From Echinarachnius parma (lineage: Eukaryota; Echinodermata; Echinoidea; Clypeasteroida; Echinarachniidae): a stretch of 64,000 nucleotides of DNA. Numbering within the stretch: position 1 is the stretch's first letter; the number at the start of each line of letters is the position of its first letter. Below the pieces are notes generated by a model that saw only the letters and a list, made by a program, of their open reading frames with translations, was not told where the DNA came from and did no database searches. Shown here one piece after another: positions 1-24,500 of this stretch. The stretch spans positions 170,899 to 234,898 of the forward strand of contig JBAMJV010005553.1 of assembly GCA_037951105.1 (NCBI GenBank). The letters are read 5' to 3'. Position numbers and translations under genes: made by a program.

Positions 1-890
1 GTCGGGATATTTTCGCGCCGATGTTGGAACTGGTAGCAATTAAAAAGGTCGGTAAATGATTGTAACATTGATGTCGGACCAATGAGTTTTATTGGACATC
101 CATATGACATCTCAATTATGACGCCAAAGCGATATCCTGCCGATGTCATAAATGGCACCAATGAAACTAATCATTAAATAGTCATTAAATGGATGTTGTG
201 CCGTTGTCAATAATTCGACATGAATATGACATCTCAAATATAAAATCGGCCTTCTATCGCCCCGATGTTGGAACTGGTAGTAATTTAAGAGGTCGGTAAA
301 ATGCTGTGAAATTGATGTCGGGTCACAGTTATTAATTAGACATAAATATGACATCCAAAATATGACTTTGGGCCTATACCGCACAGATGTCGGAACTTTA
401 CGAAATTTTAAAGGTGGGTAAAAGGTTGTGAAATAGATGTCGGGCGGATGTCATTACTCCTACATAAATATGACATCTCTACTATGACGTCAGTCCGATA
501 TTGTGATGATGTTGTATCTGGTAGCAATTTAAGAGGTCGGTACATGGTTGTGAAATTGATGTCTGGCCAATGTTATTAATTGGACCTCAATATGACATCT
601 CTATATGATGACGCCAAAGCGATATCCTGCTGATGTCAGAACTGACAGCAATTAAACAAGTCGGCAAATGGTCATTAAACTGATGTTGTGCCGATGTCAT
701 TAATCCGACATGAATAAGAGATCTCAAATATGACGTCGGGCTAATATCGCGCAGATGTTGGAACTGGTAGCAAATTAAGAGGTCAGTCAAAGATTGCAAA
801 ATTGATGTTGGGCTTATGTTATTAAATATACATAAATATGACAGCTCAAATATGACGTTGGGTCAATGTTGTACCGATGTCGGAACTGGC
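1..890. repeat. 122-bp tandem satellite, seven units, cut by the window edge
   Basis: The phrase ATATGACATCTCAAATATGA recurs at about 101, 223, 343, 467, 591, 714 and 836, spacing 120-124 bp. Each unit also carries GATGTYGGAACTGGTAGCAA and GAGGTCGGTAAA. Divergence is moderate. Units are built from short words around GATGTCGGG or GATGTTGGGCC. No coding signal. Confidence 0.9.
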
Positions 891-1490
891 GACCATTTGC
901 CGGCTTGTTTCATTGCTGCCAGTTCTGACATCGGCAGGATATCACTATGGCGTCATCATTGAGATGTCATATTCATGTCTAATCATTGACTTCGGCACAA
1001 CATCAATTAAATGACCATTTGCCGAGTTGTTTCATTGCTGCAAGTTCTTACATCAGACTGACACATTTATCACATTCATGTCTAATTAATAACATCGGAC
1101 CGATATCAATTTTACTACCATTTACCGACCTCCTTAATTGCTATCTTTTCCGACATCGGCGCGATATTAGCCCGACGTCATATTGGAGATGGCATATTCA
1201 TGTCCGACTATTGACATCGGCGCAACATCACTTTTATGATCATTTGCCGACTTGTTTCATTGCTGTCAGTTCTGACATCGGCAGGATATCGCATTGACGT
1301 CATCATTGAGATGTCATATTCATGTCGGATCATTGACATCGGCTCAACATCAACTTAATGACTATTAGCCGACTTGATTCACTGCTGCCCATTCTGACGT
1401 CGTAGGATTTCGATTTGACGTAAAAATTGAGATGTCCTATTCTTGTCTCATTACTAACATTGTCCCGACATTAATTTCACAACCATGACT
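890..1490. repeat. the same 122-bp satellite in opposite orientation
   Basis: The reversed phrase GAGATGTCATATTCATGTC recurs at about 959, 1068 (partial), 1188, 1309 and 1431. The switch occurs near 890, between GGAACTGGC and GACCATTTGCCG. With the preceding block this makes an imperfect palindrome well over 1 kb long, the layout of foldback elements whose arms are tandem subrepeats (the sea urchin TU elements are a described example of that type). Confidence 0.85.
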
Positions 1491-2030
1491 GACCACTGAC
1501 TGAATAATTGATGTTGGGTCGAAATCGCAAAATGACGTTTGGCCAGCATTAAAAAAACAAAATCGCCGCGCTGATGTTGGGCTGGCGGACATTTTTACGT
1601 CGCGGCGACGTCGGATTTTTAATGTAGGCCCAACGTCGTCTTAAAACGACTTTTTACATTGGCCCAATGCTGGCACAACGTCAGGTGGCTAGCTGGGTAG
1701 CGACCTCTTAAATTGATACCAGTCCCAACATCGGCGCTATATTAGGTCGACCTCTTATTGGAGATGTCATATTAATGACATTGGGCCATTGTCAAATTTT
1801 GATGTTGGTCCAGCATCAAACGTCGGGCGAACGTCAAGATTTGATATTGGGCCAACAATAAAAAATAACGTTGGGCTAATGTCGGGCAGGCGGACAATGT
1901 AATGTCGGGCCAACGTCAGAATTTGATGTTGGCCCAACGTCTGGATTTGATATTGGGCCATTGGCGGAAATTGACATTGGGCCAAAATCACAGAATTATG
2001 TTGTGACAATGTTGGGCTAGTGGACATTTT
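1490..2030. repeat. degenerate GATGTTGGGCC-word repeats
   Basis: Continuous run of words such as GATGTTGGGCCA, GGCCAACGTCAG and GGCGGACATTTT without a clear longer period. GTCAGGTGGCTAGCTGGG occurs near 1680 and again near 3217, bracketing the 250-bp array. Confidence 0.7.
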
Positions 2031-3170
2031 AACCTCGCGCCCATATCATAATGTTATGTTGGTCCAATGTCATGAGTTGATGTTGGGCCATTGTCAGAAA
2101 TTGACGTATCACAAAATGACGTGGTGACGATGTTGGGCTGGCGGACATTTTAACGTCGAGCCCACATCAGAATTTGATATCTGTCCTATGTCAGGATTTG
2201 GTGTTGGGCCATTGTCGGAAATTGACATTTGCCCGACATCACAAAATAATGTTGGGACAATGTTGGGCTAGCGGACATTTTAACCTCGCGCCCACATCAT
2301 AATGTTATGTTGGTCCAATGTCATGAGTTGATGTTGGGCCATTGTCAGAAATTGACGTATCACAAAATGACGTGGTGACGATGTTGGGCTGGCGGACATT
2401 TTAACGTCGAGCCCACATCAAAATTTGATATCTGTCCAATGTCAGGATTTGGTGTTGGGCCATTGTCGGAAATTGACATTTGCCCGACATCACAAAATAA
2501 TGTTGGGACAATGTTGGGCTAGCGGACATTTTAACCTCGCGCCCACATCATAATGTTATGTTGGTCCAATGTCATGAGTTGATGTTGGGCCATTGTCAGA
2601 AATTGACGTATCACAAAATGACGTGGTGACGATGTTGGGCTGGCGGACATTTTAACGTCGAGCCCACATCAAAATTTGATATCTGTCCAATGTCAGGATT
2701 TGGTGTTGGGCCATTGTCGGAAATTGACATTTGCCCGACATCACAAAATGATGTTGGGACAATGTTGGGCTAGCGGACATTTTAACCTCGCGCCCACATC
2801 ATAATGTTATGTTGGTCCAATGTCATGAGTTGATGTTGGGCCATTGTCAGAAATTGACGTATCACAAATGACGTGGGACGATGTTGGGCTGGCGGACATT
2901 TTAACGTCGAGCCCACATCAGAATTTGATATCTGTCCTATGTCAGGATTTGGTGTTGGGCCATTGTCGGAAATTTACATTTGCCCGACATCACAAAATGA
3001 TGTTGGGACAATGTCAGGCTAGCGGACATTTTAACCTCGCGCCCACATCATAATGTTATGTTGGTCCGATGTCATGAGTTGATGTTGGGCCATTGTCAAA
3101 AAATTGACGTATCACAAAATGACGTGGTTACGATGTTGGGCTGGCGGACATTTTAACCTCGAGCCAACCG
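2031..3170. repeat. 250-bp tandem repeat, about 4.5 units
   Basis: TTAACCTCGCGCCCACATCA recurs at about 2031, 2283, 2533, 2784 and 3033. Units are very similar, differing by single bases and small indels, so the amplification is younger than the 122-bp block. The last unit ends at ACCTCGAGCC near 3165. The period is about twice the 122-bp unit and uses the same words. Confidence 0.92.
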
Positions 3171-3412
3171 CGATAAGCCGACATCCGGCCAACAACTTAT
3201 GACATCGGCACGACGTCAGGTGGCTAGCTGGGAAGTAAGAATTATGCACATTTGGATACCAGAGTCCACGCTGACAGACTGATGTCGTACGTTATGAGTC
3301 CTGTAACACTAATATTAGTTCGAGCAAGCGTATCCATCTTATCCTTTTCTAAATAGTGAATTTTATGAATATGAACCTTTCGTTAAAGTATTATTAGAGA
3401 TGTCATTGTAAA

Positions 3413-15926: not shown

Positions 15927-16403
15927 TCCTCCTGATATTTTAACAATCTAATCCAGTGTGGGGGGAAAAAACAGCAGTCTTAACCCTGCACAAACAACAG
16001 GTCGATGTAAATTCAGTCGTTTGGTAGAATGATCAACTTGCTTTCCTAATTCCGATAACATGTTCAAACATCATTATTGTTCGATCTCGAATCGTATTAT
16101 GGGACTACTTGAGCAAAACAAATCTAAGAGAAATACTTAAAGAAATCAACATGGTATCAACATTTTGATTCAAATTTCAGTTCATTAATTAATTGAATAC
16201 AAATTTGTCCTTATTGAATTAACCCAAAATTATGCATATCGCTTAATTCGTTACGTAAGTATTTAATTGATACCGGCCCTGGGTCACGTATCATAAAGAT
16301 GCAGGATTAATTGATTAATAGTATAAATAATCGTGAATATTTATTTAACGGGGACAAGTTCTAGCACTCCATGGGTCGCATATTCAAGTTTAGCTTTAAT
16401 TCC

Positions 16404-17340: not shown

Positions 17341-17359
17341 ACAAAAACGTATGTTAGAA

Positions 17360-18415
17360 TACTGGTGTTGTTGTGTGGAAGTCGTTATACGTTTTTCTAA
17401 CATCAACGAATTTAGTATGATGCATACTATATATTTCGAACAATCACTTTAAAAACTCTGTGTCAGATATATGACAATATTTCATAGACATGCTAAAAGG
17501 CTAGTGGTATATTTGGGTGAAAGTCGTAATCGTTTGTCAATCGACATGATCGATGACGATATAATAGGTTTTATTGTGATGTCCTTCTTTCTCTCAGAGC
17601 AACGGAGCATTGAGAGTGATGCATATAATATTCTTTCACAATAACAGTTCATTATTTAAAATAATGTATGTGTAATATATCAACATTATACTACAGAATG
17701 CTGGTGTCGTTGGGTGGAAGTCGTAATACGTCTGTCTATCGATGACAATTGGTTTTGTATAATTGGTTTTATTGTGATGTCCCTCTTTCTCACAGAGCAT
17801 CGGAGCGTTGAGTATGATGCATAAAATAGTTCTTTTACAAAAAAAATAGTTTCATTATAAAAAAAATTCCGCTAATATATCAACATTATACTACAATGCT
17901 GGTGTCGTTTGGTGAAAGTCGTAATTCACCTCTCTATCCAAGACAATCTGTTTTGTATAATTGGTTTTTATCGTGATGTCCCTCTTTCTCCAAGAGCATC
18001 GAAGCGTTGAGTATGATGCATAAAATAGTTCTTTTACAAAAAAAAATAGTTTCATTATAAAAAAATTCCGCTAATATATCAACATTATACTACAATGCTG
18101 GTGTCGTTTGGTGAAAGTCGTAATTCACCTCTCTATCCAAGACAATCGGTTTTGTATAATTGGTTTTATCGTGATGTCCCTCTTTCTCACAGAGCATCGA
18201 AGCGTTGAGTATATTGCATAATATATTTTCAAAATTACATTTTAAAGTACGTTTTCAGTCCAATCTTTAACCAGAAACAAAACTATGCTAAAAAGCTGGT
18301 GTCGTTGGGTGGAAGTCGTAATACGTCTGTCTATCGATGACGATCGGTTTTGTATAATTAGTTTTATTGTGATGTCCCTCTTTCTCCCAGAGCATCGGTG
18401 CGTTGAGTATGATGC
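17360..18415 (-). repeat. tandem array (about 199-bp unit) seeded by the 3' end of nAChR exon 6
   Basis: Units at 18296-18415 (inside exon 6), 18097-18217, 17898-18019, 17700-17820, 17500-17622, and a shortened one at about 17360-17422. Start-to-start spacing is 198-200 bp. Each carries the codons from about GIILNAPM to the stop, joined by AT-rich spacers; the spacers of the middle units are nearly identical to each other. State of the frame: 18097 unit open with a stop after PAL; 17898 unit frameshifted by one extra A; 17700 unit open; 17500 unit has an early TGA; last unit internally deleted. The array would lie in or just beyond the 3' UTR. The 17700 and 17500 units keep an AATAAA. Confidence 0.88.
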
Positions 18416-18503
18416 CGAGCGTACCGCTGAGGCAGATGGCTGAGAAGAGCCACAGGAAGACGCGGTCCATGACCAGGGCGACGAACCGCCAGTCCTCGCT
18501 TAT
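18288..18503 (-). CDS. CHRNA-like: nAChR exon 6: TM4, extracellular tail and stop
   Basis: 216 bp, phase 0, encoding residues 455-525 and a TAG stop. Acceptor TTTCTTGTCACAG. It begins [20 protein letters not shown], matching the conserved EDWK.VAMV.DR.FLW lead-in to TM4. After TM4 the tail [18 protein letters not shown] continues to TTPAF: 32 residues, long for this family, with two overlapping-range sequons at N500 and N503. The coding sequence itself contains AATAAA (His-Asn-Lys). The 3' half of the exon is the first unit of a 199-bp tandem array continuing downstream, and the 5' half has a copy in intron 5. Confidence 0.95.
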   Translation of the reverse strand: MSEDWRFVALVMDRVFLWLFSAICLSGTLGIILNAPMLWEKEGHHNKTNYTKPIVIDRQTYYDFHPTTPAF

Positions 18504-21500
18504 CTGTGACAAGAAATAAAATAAAATGAAATCGTATTAAATTAGATCAAATCGATTCGAATCAACTTGAATCAAATCAAATAAGATCGAATCGGACTGA
18601 GACAGATAGCTGAAAAGAGCCACAGGAAGACGCGGTCCATGAATAGGGAGACGAACCGCAAGTCCTTGCTTATCTGAGGCAAGAAATCAAATCAAATCGT
18701 ATTATAATTAGATCAAATCGATTCGAATCAAGTCGAATCAAATCAAATCAAAGTAAATTAAAAATTTAAATTAAAATAATTGAAATCAAATCAAAACAAA
18801 TCAAATCACTTCATCTCTAATCCAGTCAAATCATATTACGATGTTATCGAATCGATCAGTATGTCTCATGTTGACGTCGTATTCACAGTCTTTCACATTA
18901 AAAAAAACTAAACATATCTTACAAAATAATGGTATACTGTACCACAAACCTAAACTAAAATGTTAATCTGTAACCAGGGAAACCGTAGTTTGAGTATGAG
19001 ATCAACCTCAGGTTGTATCTTGAAAAGAAAAAAACAAACGTGACTGGTAACTAAAGATCAAAGAAAGTACTGTTGATGAGTGGCCCATGAATATTGTCCC
19101 GTCTTACCTGATCTTCGTCATCCTCCCTCTGCAGATGCCTGGCAATGATCTCCACACTGTCGATCATCTCTAGACACTCCCTAGGAAGAGAGTCACCTGA
19201 CGAGTTCATTTCTCGATTCCGACTCTCAATCTCCTCCAGGAGCGACGGCGTGATGGTATCAATGACGTAACGCGCGCCGGAGTGAAGGTATCTCTTGTCC
19301 GACGAGATCCCGAACAGGCGGCCGCACAGTCCCGCTGACACAAACCGCTTCTTCATCTTTTTCGCCGACTTGAACTTCTCGTGCTCGAAGGGCGCGACAG
19401 GCCTCTGCATGCACAGCACGTTGGGCAGGAGCGAGAGGAACATGTAGCGTATCCATGGCGACATGTAATGCGTGCGCGAGTTGCGGAAGTGGAAGTTGAT
19501 GACGATGACGGTGATGGTGATGGAGAGGGTTACGAGCACCATGGTGAACAGCATGTAGCGACCGATCAACGGCAGCGTGGTCGACGTCGGGGGGATGATG
19601 TCGGGGATGAGGAGGAGGAACACGATGAGGGCGAGGAGGATGGAGATGGAGAGGGTGATCTTCTCCTGCGCGTCCGAGGGGAGGAAGAAGACGAGGATGG
19701 TGAGGAACGAGATGAGGAGACAAGGCACTACGAGAGTCACCACGTAAAACAACGGCTTCCGGTGGAGCACGAACGTAAACGTCACGTCCGGATAGATATC
19801 CACGCAGCACGGGTATCTGATCTCGTTACGCTTGGCGGGCGATTCGACGATTTCCCATTCGCCATTCGCCCAATAGTCCTCCTGGTCGACGACGTCGGAT
19901 TCGGACAGCATGTCGATCTTGAGCGTGTCGTGGGTCCAGGGGCCAAACTTCATGATGCATCGCTGTTCGTCGAAGGGGAAGTAGGCGATGTTGATGGTGC
20001 AGGAGCTCCTGTATATCGCTGGAGGAAGCCATTGCACGAAACCGGTACTGTTCACAATGGCATTCACCAGGAACTGGATGTCAAAATTACCGTTGGCACT
20101 GTGAGAGGGATTTTAAAAAAACACACACAAATTCCAAATCAATTAATTTTCGCCACATTTTCAATTCAATTTCAATTTCAATTTTCAATTTCATTTTCAA
20201 TATCAATTTCAATTTCATGAAGGATGTTGATATTGCAAAGAAGAAAACAAAAATAGGCGCTGTTTCCGGTCAGTCAACGCATAATTAAGAATACCCAAAT
20301 TATTATGTATGCGAGCAGGAAACGGAATGCCATTCACTGTGCATATATATACAAGGGCAAGAACCAAATAGATAGGTATACAATGTGAACAAGTAAGGAT
20401 ATTAATTAATCTAATATATTTCAATAATTCCACTCGGTCGCTTCAACAAACTGTGCTCATTGATATGAGTGAAGAGGTATATTACTCTATACCATTTCAA
20501 TGATTTAACTCTGTCACTTCAAATTTCGCTATTAAATGTATTATGTAAACAAGAAGACAGATTATACATTGAATTATAACCGAAATCAAATCACTTAACA
20601 ATTTACTAACTCATAGGTACAAATTAGGTACATCCACATTTATTGGATTATATTATTCTCTCTGGTTCAAGATCAAGAATGATATTAAGTTTAAATATAA
20701 TTGATTTATATTACTTACTTGTTGTATAGCAGAATATCGGGCCGCCATATGAGACTAGCGGGAATATGCATGGTGGCGATGCCGTCATATTCATCGGGAT
20801 TCCACGTCAGATGATGGTCAATCCAACCCTGAAAAGGAGATAAGGTATCGAATACTTATTTAGTGGACGTGGTGTGGCAAGATTGGTAGAGCGCGTGCCT
20901 TCCAATCGTGAGGTCCCGAGTTCGAACCCAGAGTATGCCCATCGCGTTTTTCCTTCAGCAAGAAAAATTGTCCACATTTGCTGCTCCCCACCCAGGTGTA
21001 TAAATGGGTACCCGGAAAGATGGAACGTTATTCCCTTAGCATTGTGTGCGCGGTGTGCGCCCGCAAGGTTTTCCGTGGCTGGAATGCTCCCCAGGGAGTG
21101 GAGGAAAACGTGCACTTTGTGTGTTGGATTGATTGCATAATGTATCCGATGACTTTTATCAAATAAGTCCAAAGACATTATGAACTTCATTTTAATAACA
21201 TATGACACTTCCGGATGATCTACCCAGATCTAAAAGTATCTGATTGTTATTTAACCATGAAAGGATTATGCGACGCAATTAAACCATGGCTAAATATATC
21301 AACGGTTTGATAGAGCACCGCACGTTCATCTTTCGTTTACAAAATAAGGAACATAATCAGCCTTTAAATCTACTAAACAATAAAATTATTAGCATAAGCA
21401 TGATAAGTAAAAGAACATTAGATATTAATTGTAATGCATATAATTATGTTCATTCATTTTGCCACAGAATAAAAATCATTTTTTACAAATGAATATGGAA

Positions 21501-24500
21501 AGATAAACACCTTGGCCTCCCATAGAACAGTGGTCTTAAACCATGTTTTGAAATTACATCAATTATGACGCATAATTTAAACCATGAATGAAGAGCTTAG
21601 TTTTAAAAGGCGCTAAATCCACTTTCCATACAAATTGAGTTAACGATAGCAGTACACCAGTAAGTAGAGCTCTATAAATCCTCATTTTAGAACAAAATAC
21701 AAAATCAAAAACAAAATATGGAACGTTTCATTTTCATATTCCCATAGGCGTGTGTAAAAAGTTGGACAAAGAGACCCGTTTTTCTTCAATATTGAAAAAG
21801 TGGATTTAGCGCCTTTTGGAATTAAGCTCTTCAAATATACTACTCAAAAAAAGTTAAGGACCACTTTTTTTCTTTCTTCTTAACTTGTATTTTTTTCCAA
21901 GCAATGAGTGAGGTCTAATTCTTCCATTTTTTGTTCGTCTAGATGGTGTTCTCATTGGAATAAACAAATAAAAACATGTTTCGAAACATAAAATGCACAT
22001 TTTCATGATGAGAACTTGGGCAATCTTATATTTTAAAAAAAAAGTATGCACAGAATAAAAAGTGGTCCTTAACTTTTTTTTAGTAGTGTATGTTAATTTG
22101 TTAATTACAGCCAAAATGTACTTACATGTTTGACCCAAACACTGGTGATCATGACCTGGTTCTTTTCGTCCTGTTAGGAAAAAGGACAATTAAAAAAATT
22201 ACAAAAAGACGTTTATCGCAAATAATTTATAAGAGTTTGACATCAAGGCAATCATCTTTAGAATAGCGTCAACGATCTTTATAAAGAAGCTGTTAATTTG
22301 CATTAAAAACACTCTCCTACAAAATTGTTAACGAGGCACTGCCACGCTGTAGGTTTGAGTTCTACTATTGATAAAGATACTAATGGCATTTTCTTGAATG
22401 TTATCATTAAAAATTTGAAGTGATGGTCTAGGTTTAATGAAAGTGAGCAATAAAAGATAGGTATTTTTGTTATGTATTCACAATAGCTAATAGGAAACCT
22501 AAATGGTATGGTTGCGTATCGAGATCGTCATGACTTGCCACAGTATGGTTCAGCAAGGTACGGTAGAGGGAGGGGGGGAGGGGGGGGCAGCAGAGAAAGA
22601 GGTGTGGGAACGTTGGTTGCCAAGCAAGTGGTATCACCTCCATGGTCAATCAGACCACGGGAGAGCAAACTTGAGGTAGGTTCAATGATGGCTAATTTAA
22701 TACTTGTTACCGTTATAATTCAGTAGCGAGATGGACAAACTTAAGTCTACAATGAATGAACGGGTAACGTCCTGTTTAGGCCTGATTTTTACTGCTGATA
22801 ATAAGTACTTGTATTTCCCTGAACATCATAAACAATATTTTCTATAATTTCCATCTATACTAATTTGACCGCTACTCACTATTGATATGTGTTGCGAGAA
22901 GGACAATCCGAAGTCCACGATGACCTGTTGAGGTCTGGACATTACTATATCTCGTTACCATTGGTATATTCTGAATGTTATAATTTAATAGAGGCTAGAA
23001 TTTACTGACAATACTTACTATTGATATGAGTTGCGAGATGGACAGGCCAAAGTCGACGATGACCGGGTCACTCTCGTTCTTCACTGGTCTGATGATCTCC
23101 TTGTAGTCATTTGTCAGTCTCGCGTAGAGCCGCTCGGCCGCCTCTGATGCAAGGCTCCCTGGAGAAAAAAATAAAGAACAGCGATATACATTACAGTTTG
23201 AGTTTTTGTTTTCTAAGGACAAGTTTTGAAGCACGAAAATAAATCTCTGGAATCATTTAAATCAGCAACTATTGTCATCATCATCATCATCATCACCACC
23301 ATCCTCTACATATATATGTATCCCACGTACTCGATCTCTATACTCTTCCTCTACTATGATCTTCGTCTTCTGCATCATCATCATCATCATCGTCATCATC
23401 ATCATCAGCATCATCATCAGCATCATCAGCATCATCATCATCATCATCATCACAAGCACCACTATCATCATCATCATCATCATCATCACAAGCATCACGA
23501 TCATTAGCAGCAACATCATCAGCAGCAGCAGCATCATTATCATCGTCATCATCATCATCACAATCATTAGCAGCAACATCAGCAGCAGCATCATAAAATA
23601 CAAAATAATGATAAAAAATCAAGGTAGAATGTGTGATAGAGCCATGAATGCATTTAGTGCTCTTATGTATGTATACATGCCAGTTGTGTTTAAGCCTATC
23701 AAATTAAAATGACTCGCTGACTTGTTCCAAGAGACGGACGCACATATAGCATGAGGGTTTACTTCGAGTCAGTGAGTTGGGACAAACGTACTTTACATTA
23801 CGACGAATCAAAAACAGTAATCATATAACCTTGGTATGTTAAGTTCATCGTTCTAGAAATAGGTAAAATTATATCAGTTGCTGTCCTGCAATGCATGCAG
23901 TGGTCGATTGCATTGATTTAGCACGGGGCACGGATTGACCGGTTGTTTGGTCACGTGACCTGAAATCGAAAGTTCTCTATTTAATCGCTACATACCTATG
24001 ATATTCATGGCTACTGCATTTCAATGGACTATTATTATTATTTTCTACCTGTATATAAACATGGCTACTGCATTTAAATGACTAATTTTCTGCCTACACA
24101 TACCTGTTTACACGACTACTATACTTTCTAATGAATAATGTTCTTCTTTTCTAAAAATGGAAACATGGAAAAGGGTTGAGCTAAGAAATTATTGTATTTT
24201 AACTCGTCATGCTCTGACGTCTTTGGACTTCTTTATAATCAATCGAAAATGGAAAATGTTAAAGGTTCAAAACATCTCTTATGGAAAAAAAAAACCTCGG
24301 AAAACGTTTATATTCCAATGCCTTATAATATGTTTGAAATAAATATACATCGAAAGTATTTATAATGTTAATAAACATCCTTGTAAACATCCTTGTTTTA
24401 CAAGAATTGCTATAAAGAGTTCAAAAATATTTGTGGGAAATGTTGAAAGGCCGAAAACGAACCATGATTGACGTATAAGATGAAATATGAAAAGCATTTG

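Follow-up and report, generated by a model that had tools for sequence, protein, structure and literature searches.

The locus described here is best compared, in general terms, with tandem repeats that undergo gene conversion and concerted evolution; minisatellite or VNTR arrays that overlap coding ends provide another comparison. With regard to nAChR genes themselves, a study of insect nAChR alpha6 describes exons 3 and 8 as duplicated in tandem and spliced in a mutually exclusive manner (PMC1919356).

Within the 64,000-nt stretch of DNA analysed here (the window), which stems from a 1.2-Gb genome, we observed five tandem copies of the tail of an nAChR last exon together with the start of its 3' flank, a local duplication lying behind the gene. 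As in the concerted evolution of tandem repeats, the copies are closer to their own exon than their age, judged by the spacers between them, allows, and a sister gene on the minus strand of contig C7026, hereafter C7026(-), shares variants between its exon and units; unlike that process, the repeat consists of last-exon tail and 3' flank rather than a whole gene, and one member is a coding exon whereas the others look non-coding. As in minisatellite or VNTR arrays at coding ends, units of about 150–200 nt lie head to tail with the distal ones more decayed, but here the unit starts at nearly the same place in the protein in three paralogs. The likeness to insect alpha6 (PMC1919356) lies in tandem copies of part of an nAChR exon; the difference is that here the partial exon lies behind the stop, a usable acceptor was not found and there is no sign of splicing. 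No nAChR tail array was present among the literature matches listed, the scope of which leaves out most subscription journals. What is new is that tail arrays were also observed in the two nearest paralogs of the window gene by identity.

The window gene and the array behind its stop codon

Exon 5 of the host gene scored above the Pfam cut-off for PF02931 and PF02932, its best PDB matches were nAChR alpha-4 (5.7e-89), alpha-3 and beta-2, and it carries YPCC at 19815, i.e. the YxCC vicinal cysteines of alpha-type nAChR subunits. Exon 6 alone fell just under the Pfam cut-off (25.7 vs 28.1 bits), with a best E-value of 5.8e-9 against PDB nAChR subunits in phmmer. Scored with a rough splice-site PWM against every AG of the window, the acceptors of exons 3, 4 and 6 reach the 99.8–99.9th percentile and the exon 5 acceptor percentile 97.7. 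Judged by these matches, the host is an alpha-type nAChR subunit gene on the minus strand (Table 1).

The downstream copies of the exon 6 tail (E), U1–U5, follow on the minus strand at a repeat length of about 198 nt, and all five spacers (after E and after U1–U4) measure 71–73 nt, each beginning where the stop codon stands. The in-frame TAG of U1 is found at the position of the exon's stop. When exon 6 DNA was used as a query against its own genome, six matches were reported among the best candidates scored, all of them local. Judging from the poly(A) signals given below, the array is probably part of the 3' UTR or immediately follows it; it is probably untranslated.

Table 1. Features of the host gene and of the tail array, with positions in the window
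Feature	Position	Strand	Basis or state
Exon 5 (end of ligand-binding domain, TM1–TM3, loop)	19108..20098	-	Pfam, PDB matches, splice sites
Copy of exon 6 5' half with its acceptor, in the intron preceding exon 6	18597..18697	-	88% identical
Exon 6, last exon (TM4 and 42-codon post-TM4 tail)	18288..18503	-	Frame, acceptor, phmmer
E, repeated part of exon 6 (exon tail)	18291..18415	-	
Stop TAG of exon 6	18288-18290	-	
Spacer after E, beginning at stop codon	18218..18290	-	
U1, tail copy	18093..18217	-	Open up to in-frame TAG
Spacer after U1	18020-18092	-	
U2, recent duplicate of U1	17894..18019	-	1-nt frameshift
Spacer after U2	17821-17893	-	
U3, near-identical copy	17694..17820	-	One private substitution; stop-removing 2-nt insertion
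Spacer after U3	17623-17693	-	
U4, old copy	17496..17622	-	With stops; 88/122 sites equal to exon
Spacer after U4	17424-17495	-	
U5, remnant copy	17357..17423	-	Internal deletion

Other partial exon copies are present in the window. The coding part of the copy of the exon 6 5' half differs from the exon by four silent and four replacement changes, 33 codons are open before a stop is reached and its acceptor ranks in the 98th percentile; if used, this copy could give a receptor with TM4 but without the tail. The ends of the 198-nt tail array and of this 170-nt exon-half copy lie ~11 nt apart inside exon 6 (18415–18427). A further minus-strand exon, the nAChR loop-D exon (about 23019–23110), has two copies of its 3' end in the intron that follows, at 22873–22925 and 22705–22757. 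The nearer of these copies has 45 nt in frame with four silent and two replacement differences, is preceded by an AG of the 81st percentile and followed by a GTGAGT of the 98th, and is a possible cassette exon. Long minisatellite arrays with 122-nt and 130/251-nt units fill the start of the window (1–3165). Enrichment of local duplications at exons was weak: three of 14 clusters in the window overlapped the five exon spans (P = 0.049 by placement), the clusters beyond base 3300 having been grouped by us and the exon spans entered by hand, and the comparison is biased because a conserved exon leaves old copies easier to detect.

Differences between U3 and the exon tail

U3 and the exon tail are equal at 117 of 123 aligned sites. 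Our recount agrees with the sequence-only reading of this locus, which had counted six silent differences (GCA/GCT, ACT/ACC, CCG/CCA, ATC/ATT, GCT/GCA and TTT/TTC) and one replacement (TGG/TGT, W to C); at a naive chance by which 23% of changes are silent, at least six of seven silent has P = 0.0008. As the TTT/TTC difference falls inside a 2-nt length change (U1 GCATTGTAG, U3 GCATTCTGTAG), the safer count is five silent substitutions and one replacement. The frame of U3 continues beyond the tail because this 2-nt change removes the in-frame stop, rather than through constraint; given the local composition, a frame would stay open for 19 more codons with P = 0.23. The same reading had described this frame as open for 19 codons past the homology: the run-on itself holds, whereas the homology extends past PAF, the U3 spacer being clearly homologous to that of U1 (z = 9.1).

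The closeness of U3 to the exon is real and unusual. When an exon under constraint was simulated alongside an equally old neutral copy, at least five of six changes were silent in 0.9% of cases (P = 0.009), compared with 77% when both sequences were constrained and 0.3% when both were neutral. The E–U3 pair alone would thus favour constraint, but the changes, once polarised, are not placed on U3. At four of the silent differences (GCA/GCT, ACT/ACC, ATC/ATT and GCT/GCA) the exon alone differs, with U1, U2 and U3 in agreement at all four; U4, which is hard to align at these sites, has the array codon at two of them and the array third base at the other two. As such, the silent bias reflects mainly the exon's own purifying selection. 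The C codon is common to U1 and U3, with TTG in U2 and a stop in U4. Among the paralogs the corresponding residue is F in C5191, K in C5790 and V in C831, with one row gapped, and since it is W in both C7026 genes and in C463, C is probably a derived change of the array. This leaves, on the branch of U3 itself, one substitution (the silent CCG to CCA, the only one private to U3) and one 2-nt insertion that destroyed the stop. Neither a silent bias on its own branch nor an intact stop was found, and coding constraint on U3 is not supported.

The neighbouring units have a different record. U1 and U2 share 10 private changes, one of them silent, and eight of the ten lie within 32 columns (P = 0.004). 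Between themselves they differ at five sites in three codons, with the residue changed in all three, and their spacers are identical save for gaps (63/63 sites). U2 has thus been duplicated recently from U1, so that the contrast with U3 concerns one lineage and perhaps one event, the patch having been counted twice. The view that the units nearer the gene changed in a manner unlike U3 is therefore reduced largely to one patch shared by U1 and U2, although a difference in private changes remains (1 in U3 vs 10 in U1/U2, P = 0.012).

We also considered a role of the units in the 3' UTR, e.g. in the choice of poly(A) signals, that would preserve their nucleotide sequence. After the stop, AATAAA occurs at 17773 (inside U3), 17575 (in U4) and 17332, the first two being the first signals found downstream, and the next signal-like site appears only at 16400; U1 and U2 lack the motif through an A to G change. 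However, AATAAA is present in the exon tail itself and so is copied along with any tail copy, and the RNA of U3 folds no better than shuffles (z = 0.78), on which account RNA structure in U3 was set aside. Such a role is very unlikely.

Unequal divergence of tails and spacers

Maximum-likelihood trees of tails and spacers, from which U5 was left out, gave an E–U3 path of 0.049 (0.009–0.077) for the tail and 0.79 (0.56–1.06) for the spacer (5–95% of 40 bootstraps). The branch of U4, on the other hand, is alike in both (0.318 tail, 0.325 spacer), as a neutral copy should show. With a permissive pairwise alignment of the spacers, E and U3 differed at 6/123 sites in the tail vs 14/61 in the spacer (P = 0.0006), and no such gap was found for U1–U3 (P = 0.81) or for E–U4 (P = 0.61). 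These short, AT-rich spacers are difficult to align, with small numbers throughout, and the match of the E spacer to the U3 spacer is hardly above shuffles (z = 2.2). The discordance between tail and spacer indicates that the tail of U3, and to a lesser degree those of U1 and U2, is younger than its own flanking spacer, as is expected of a conversion tract. Differences between E and U3 are spread over the whole tail, and the edge of a tract inside the tail was not seen.

Neutral tandem copies without any conversion, of which U3 happens to be the least-mutated and in which the silent pattern comes from purifying selection on the exon, would be compatible with much of the record given above: private changes of the window units are not silent-biased, neither among those shared by U1 and U2 nor between these two; the clustering of the shared changes leaves the contrast with U3 as possibly one event; and U3 was picked from five units as the best-looking. 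The more than tenfold disagreement between the E–U3 path lengths of tail and spacer speaks against this account, as does the low chance of the silent excess under equal-time neutrality, and we regard it as unlikely, though still plausible.

The indirect evidence of young tails points to gene conversion from exon to unit as their simplest cause. Of the explanations that had been proposed from the letters alone, constraint on the copy or repeated conversion, the former fails on the single U3 substitution, the lost stop and the silent changes on the exon's side, whilst the latter gains from the tail–spacer discordance and from a four-gamete pattern in C7026(-), described below. Following a local duplication behind the nAChR gene that would have given rise to five copies of the last-exon tail and the start of the 3' flank, the tails of U1–U3 would have been reset to the exon sequence by conversion after their spacers had diverged; since then U3 would have changed little, and the exon, under purifying selection, would have gained silent changes. 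Against conversion it may be said that plain conversion by the exon does not itself make differences silent (0.009 for an equal-time neutral copy). Moreover, U3 has too few changes against the four silent ones of the exon (3/125 vs 4 of ~29 silent sites, P = 0.024, where the 29 sites of the Fisher tests are our estimate and the computed count is 25.7), and for this reason the donor may have been another allele of the exon. Overall, we favour, at a probability of roughly 0.6, an array of exon-tail copies behind the stop that is intermittently overwritten by its exon; conversion together with the exon's own constraint is a more likely source of the closeness of U3 than a function of the copy.

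Tail arrays in paralogous genes and possible translation of the copies

A protein search with exon 6 gave 31 matches in the genome, and arrays were sought at the stronger of these, with C3268, C7020, C13596 and those below left out. One locus (L037, contig C7026, 29500–39400) holds two convergent nAChR paralogs, each with a tail array. Behind the exon of C7026(-) there are four 153-nt units, of which the last has a deletion. All four keep the exon's frame and its TGA, past which the spacer stays open. The tails of its U1–U3 differ by five silent changes vs one replacement (P = 0.0025–0.0064 against neutrality, by kappa), and the replacements between exon and units are S/A, T/N or K, and K/T. 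Codons 6 and 37 occur in all four combinations among its E, U1, U2 and U3, for which exchange or repeated mutation is needed. The array of C7026(+) is decayed, with units of about 150 nt that are 66–73% alike and with stop and spacer best kept; the C7026(-) array is the young one of the two.

By one rule, multi-copy tail arrays were found at three of nine nAChR last exons vs none of 20 GPCR genes (P = 0.023), and without the window gene, which was the reason for looking, at two of eight vs none of 20 (P of about 0.07, calculated by hand). The remaining six nAChR last exons had none. The nine last exons are the nine paralogous places minus C4390 (poor TM4 match) plus the window gene, and C463 and C5547:2557, being near-identical, may be one gene in this count. 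The GPCR set consists of the highest-ranking of 141 matches with evident duplicates skipped, the stretches reaching about 0.85–1.25 kb past the stop; L073 and L076 have the same end residues and may be one. The rule is loose and also picks out one GPCR (37 nt, 78%) and C5790 (55 nt, 67%); each of these has a single short, weak match and was for that reason not counted. The near-identical genes mentioned above lie on two contigs (C5547:2557–5113 and C463:446984–449535), the C463 copy has stops in its exon match, and the pair is perhaps two alleles assembled as separate contigs or a recent duplicate.

In exon 5 the C7026 genes are 61 and 57% identical to the window gene, followed by C463 and C5547b at 53–56% over the longer half or less (a 42% piece of C463 being left out) and by the others at no more than 50%. 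By this identity and by tree path the two C7026 genes are its closest relatives, although by raw score C5191, with a longer match and no array, comes first among the paralogs, and the tree joins the three array-bearing genes with the array-less C5547b at 83/84, which is under the mark of good support. Units start at exon positions 89, 95 and about 104 in the three genes, aligned by hand on a shared W, and thus within five codons of one another (P = 0.015 for three random points). Homology between the spacers of the three genes found no support (z = 1.8, 1.6 and 0.1 vs plain shuffles), and a single origin of the arrays is therefore not established. The common structure in the three genes points either to an old array that has been kept homogeneous in each of them or to a place in the exon that is prone to duplication in all three.

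The young array also bears on a possible translation of tail copies into alternative C-termini that selection on the protein would maintain. Such selection would account for the silent excess between E and U3, given how often the simulation with both sequences constrained reached it, as well as for the silent-biased tails of C7026(-) with their common frame and conserved TGA. However, in the window U3 has lost its stop through the insertion, U2 is frameshifted, U4 has stops and the changes of U1 and U2 are mostly replacements. In the spacer that precedes U3, the highest-scoring AG, at 17831 (percentile 91.6), is out of frame (frame by hand). No AG ranking in the 90th percentile or higher would let U3 begin in frame, and those at 18030, 17457 and 17338 (96–97th percentile) lie before U2 or beyond U3; that no good acceptor precedes this unit had already been remarked from the sequence, and is borne out. 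In C7026(-) the AGs at the unit starts rank only in the 35–44th percentile, the only better ones (94th) being out of frame (by hand) and located within the E, U1 and U3 tails, and in the decayed C7026(+) array the best-kept stretch crosses the stop into the spacer. We consider translation of this kind very unlikely. U3 as a spliced C-terminal exon was rejected for want of an in-frame acceptor, and splicing of exon 5 to a unit would yield a product without TM4. Readthrough in the window gene was rejected on account of several in-frame stops in the spacer after the exon. The silent excess of C7026(-) is a genuine loose end; it was noticed post hoc, in a single array.

Three nAChR genes of the same subgroup might keep arrays of copies of the extracellular C-terminal tail that persist through exchange with the exon and form a reservoir of tail variants writable into the receptor, and the in-frame, silent-biased units of C7026(-) might even be expressed; on sequence comparison we hold this to be quite unlikely. 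As a caution, silent-biased differences between an exon and its copy can stem from constraint on the exon, and need to be polarised against further copies before the copy itself is said to be under selection. The three paralogous receptor genes offer a natural test of exchange between an exon and its non-coding copies, with the spacers as an internal clock.
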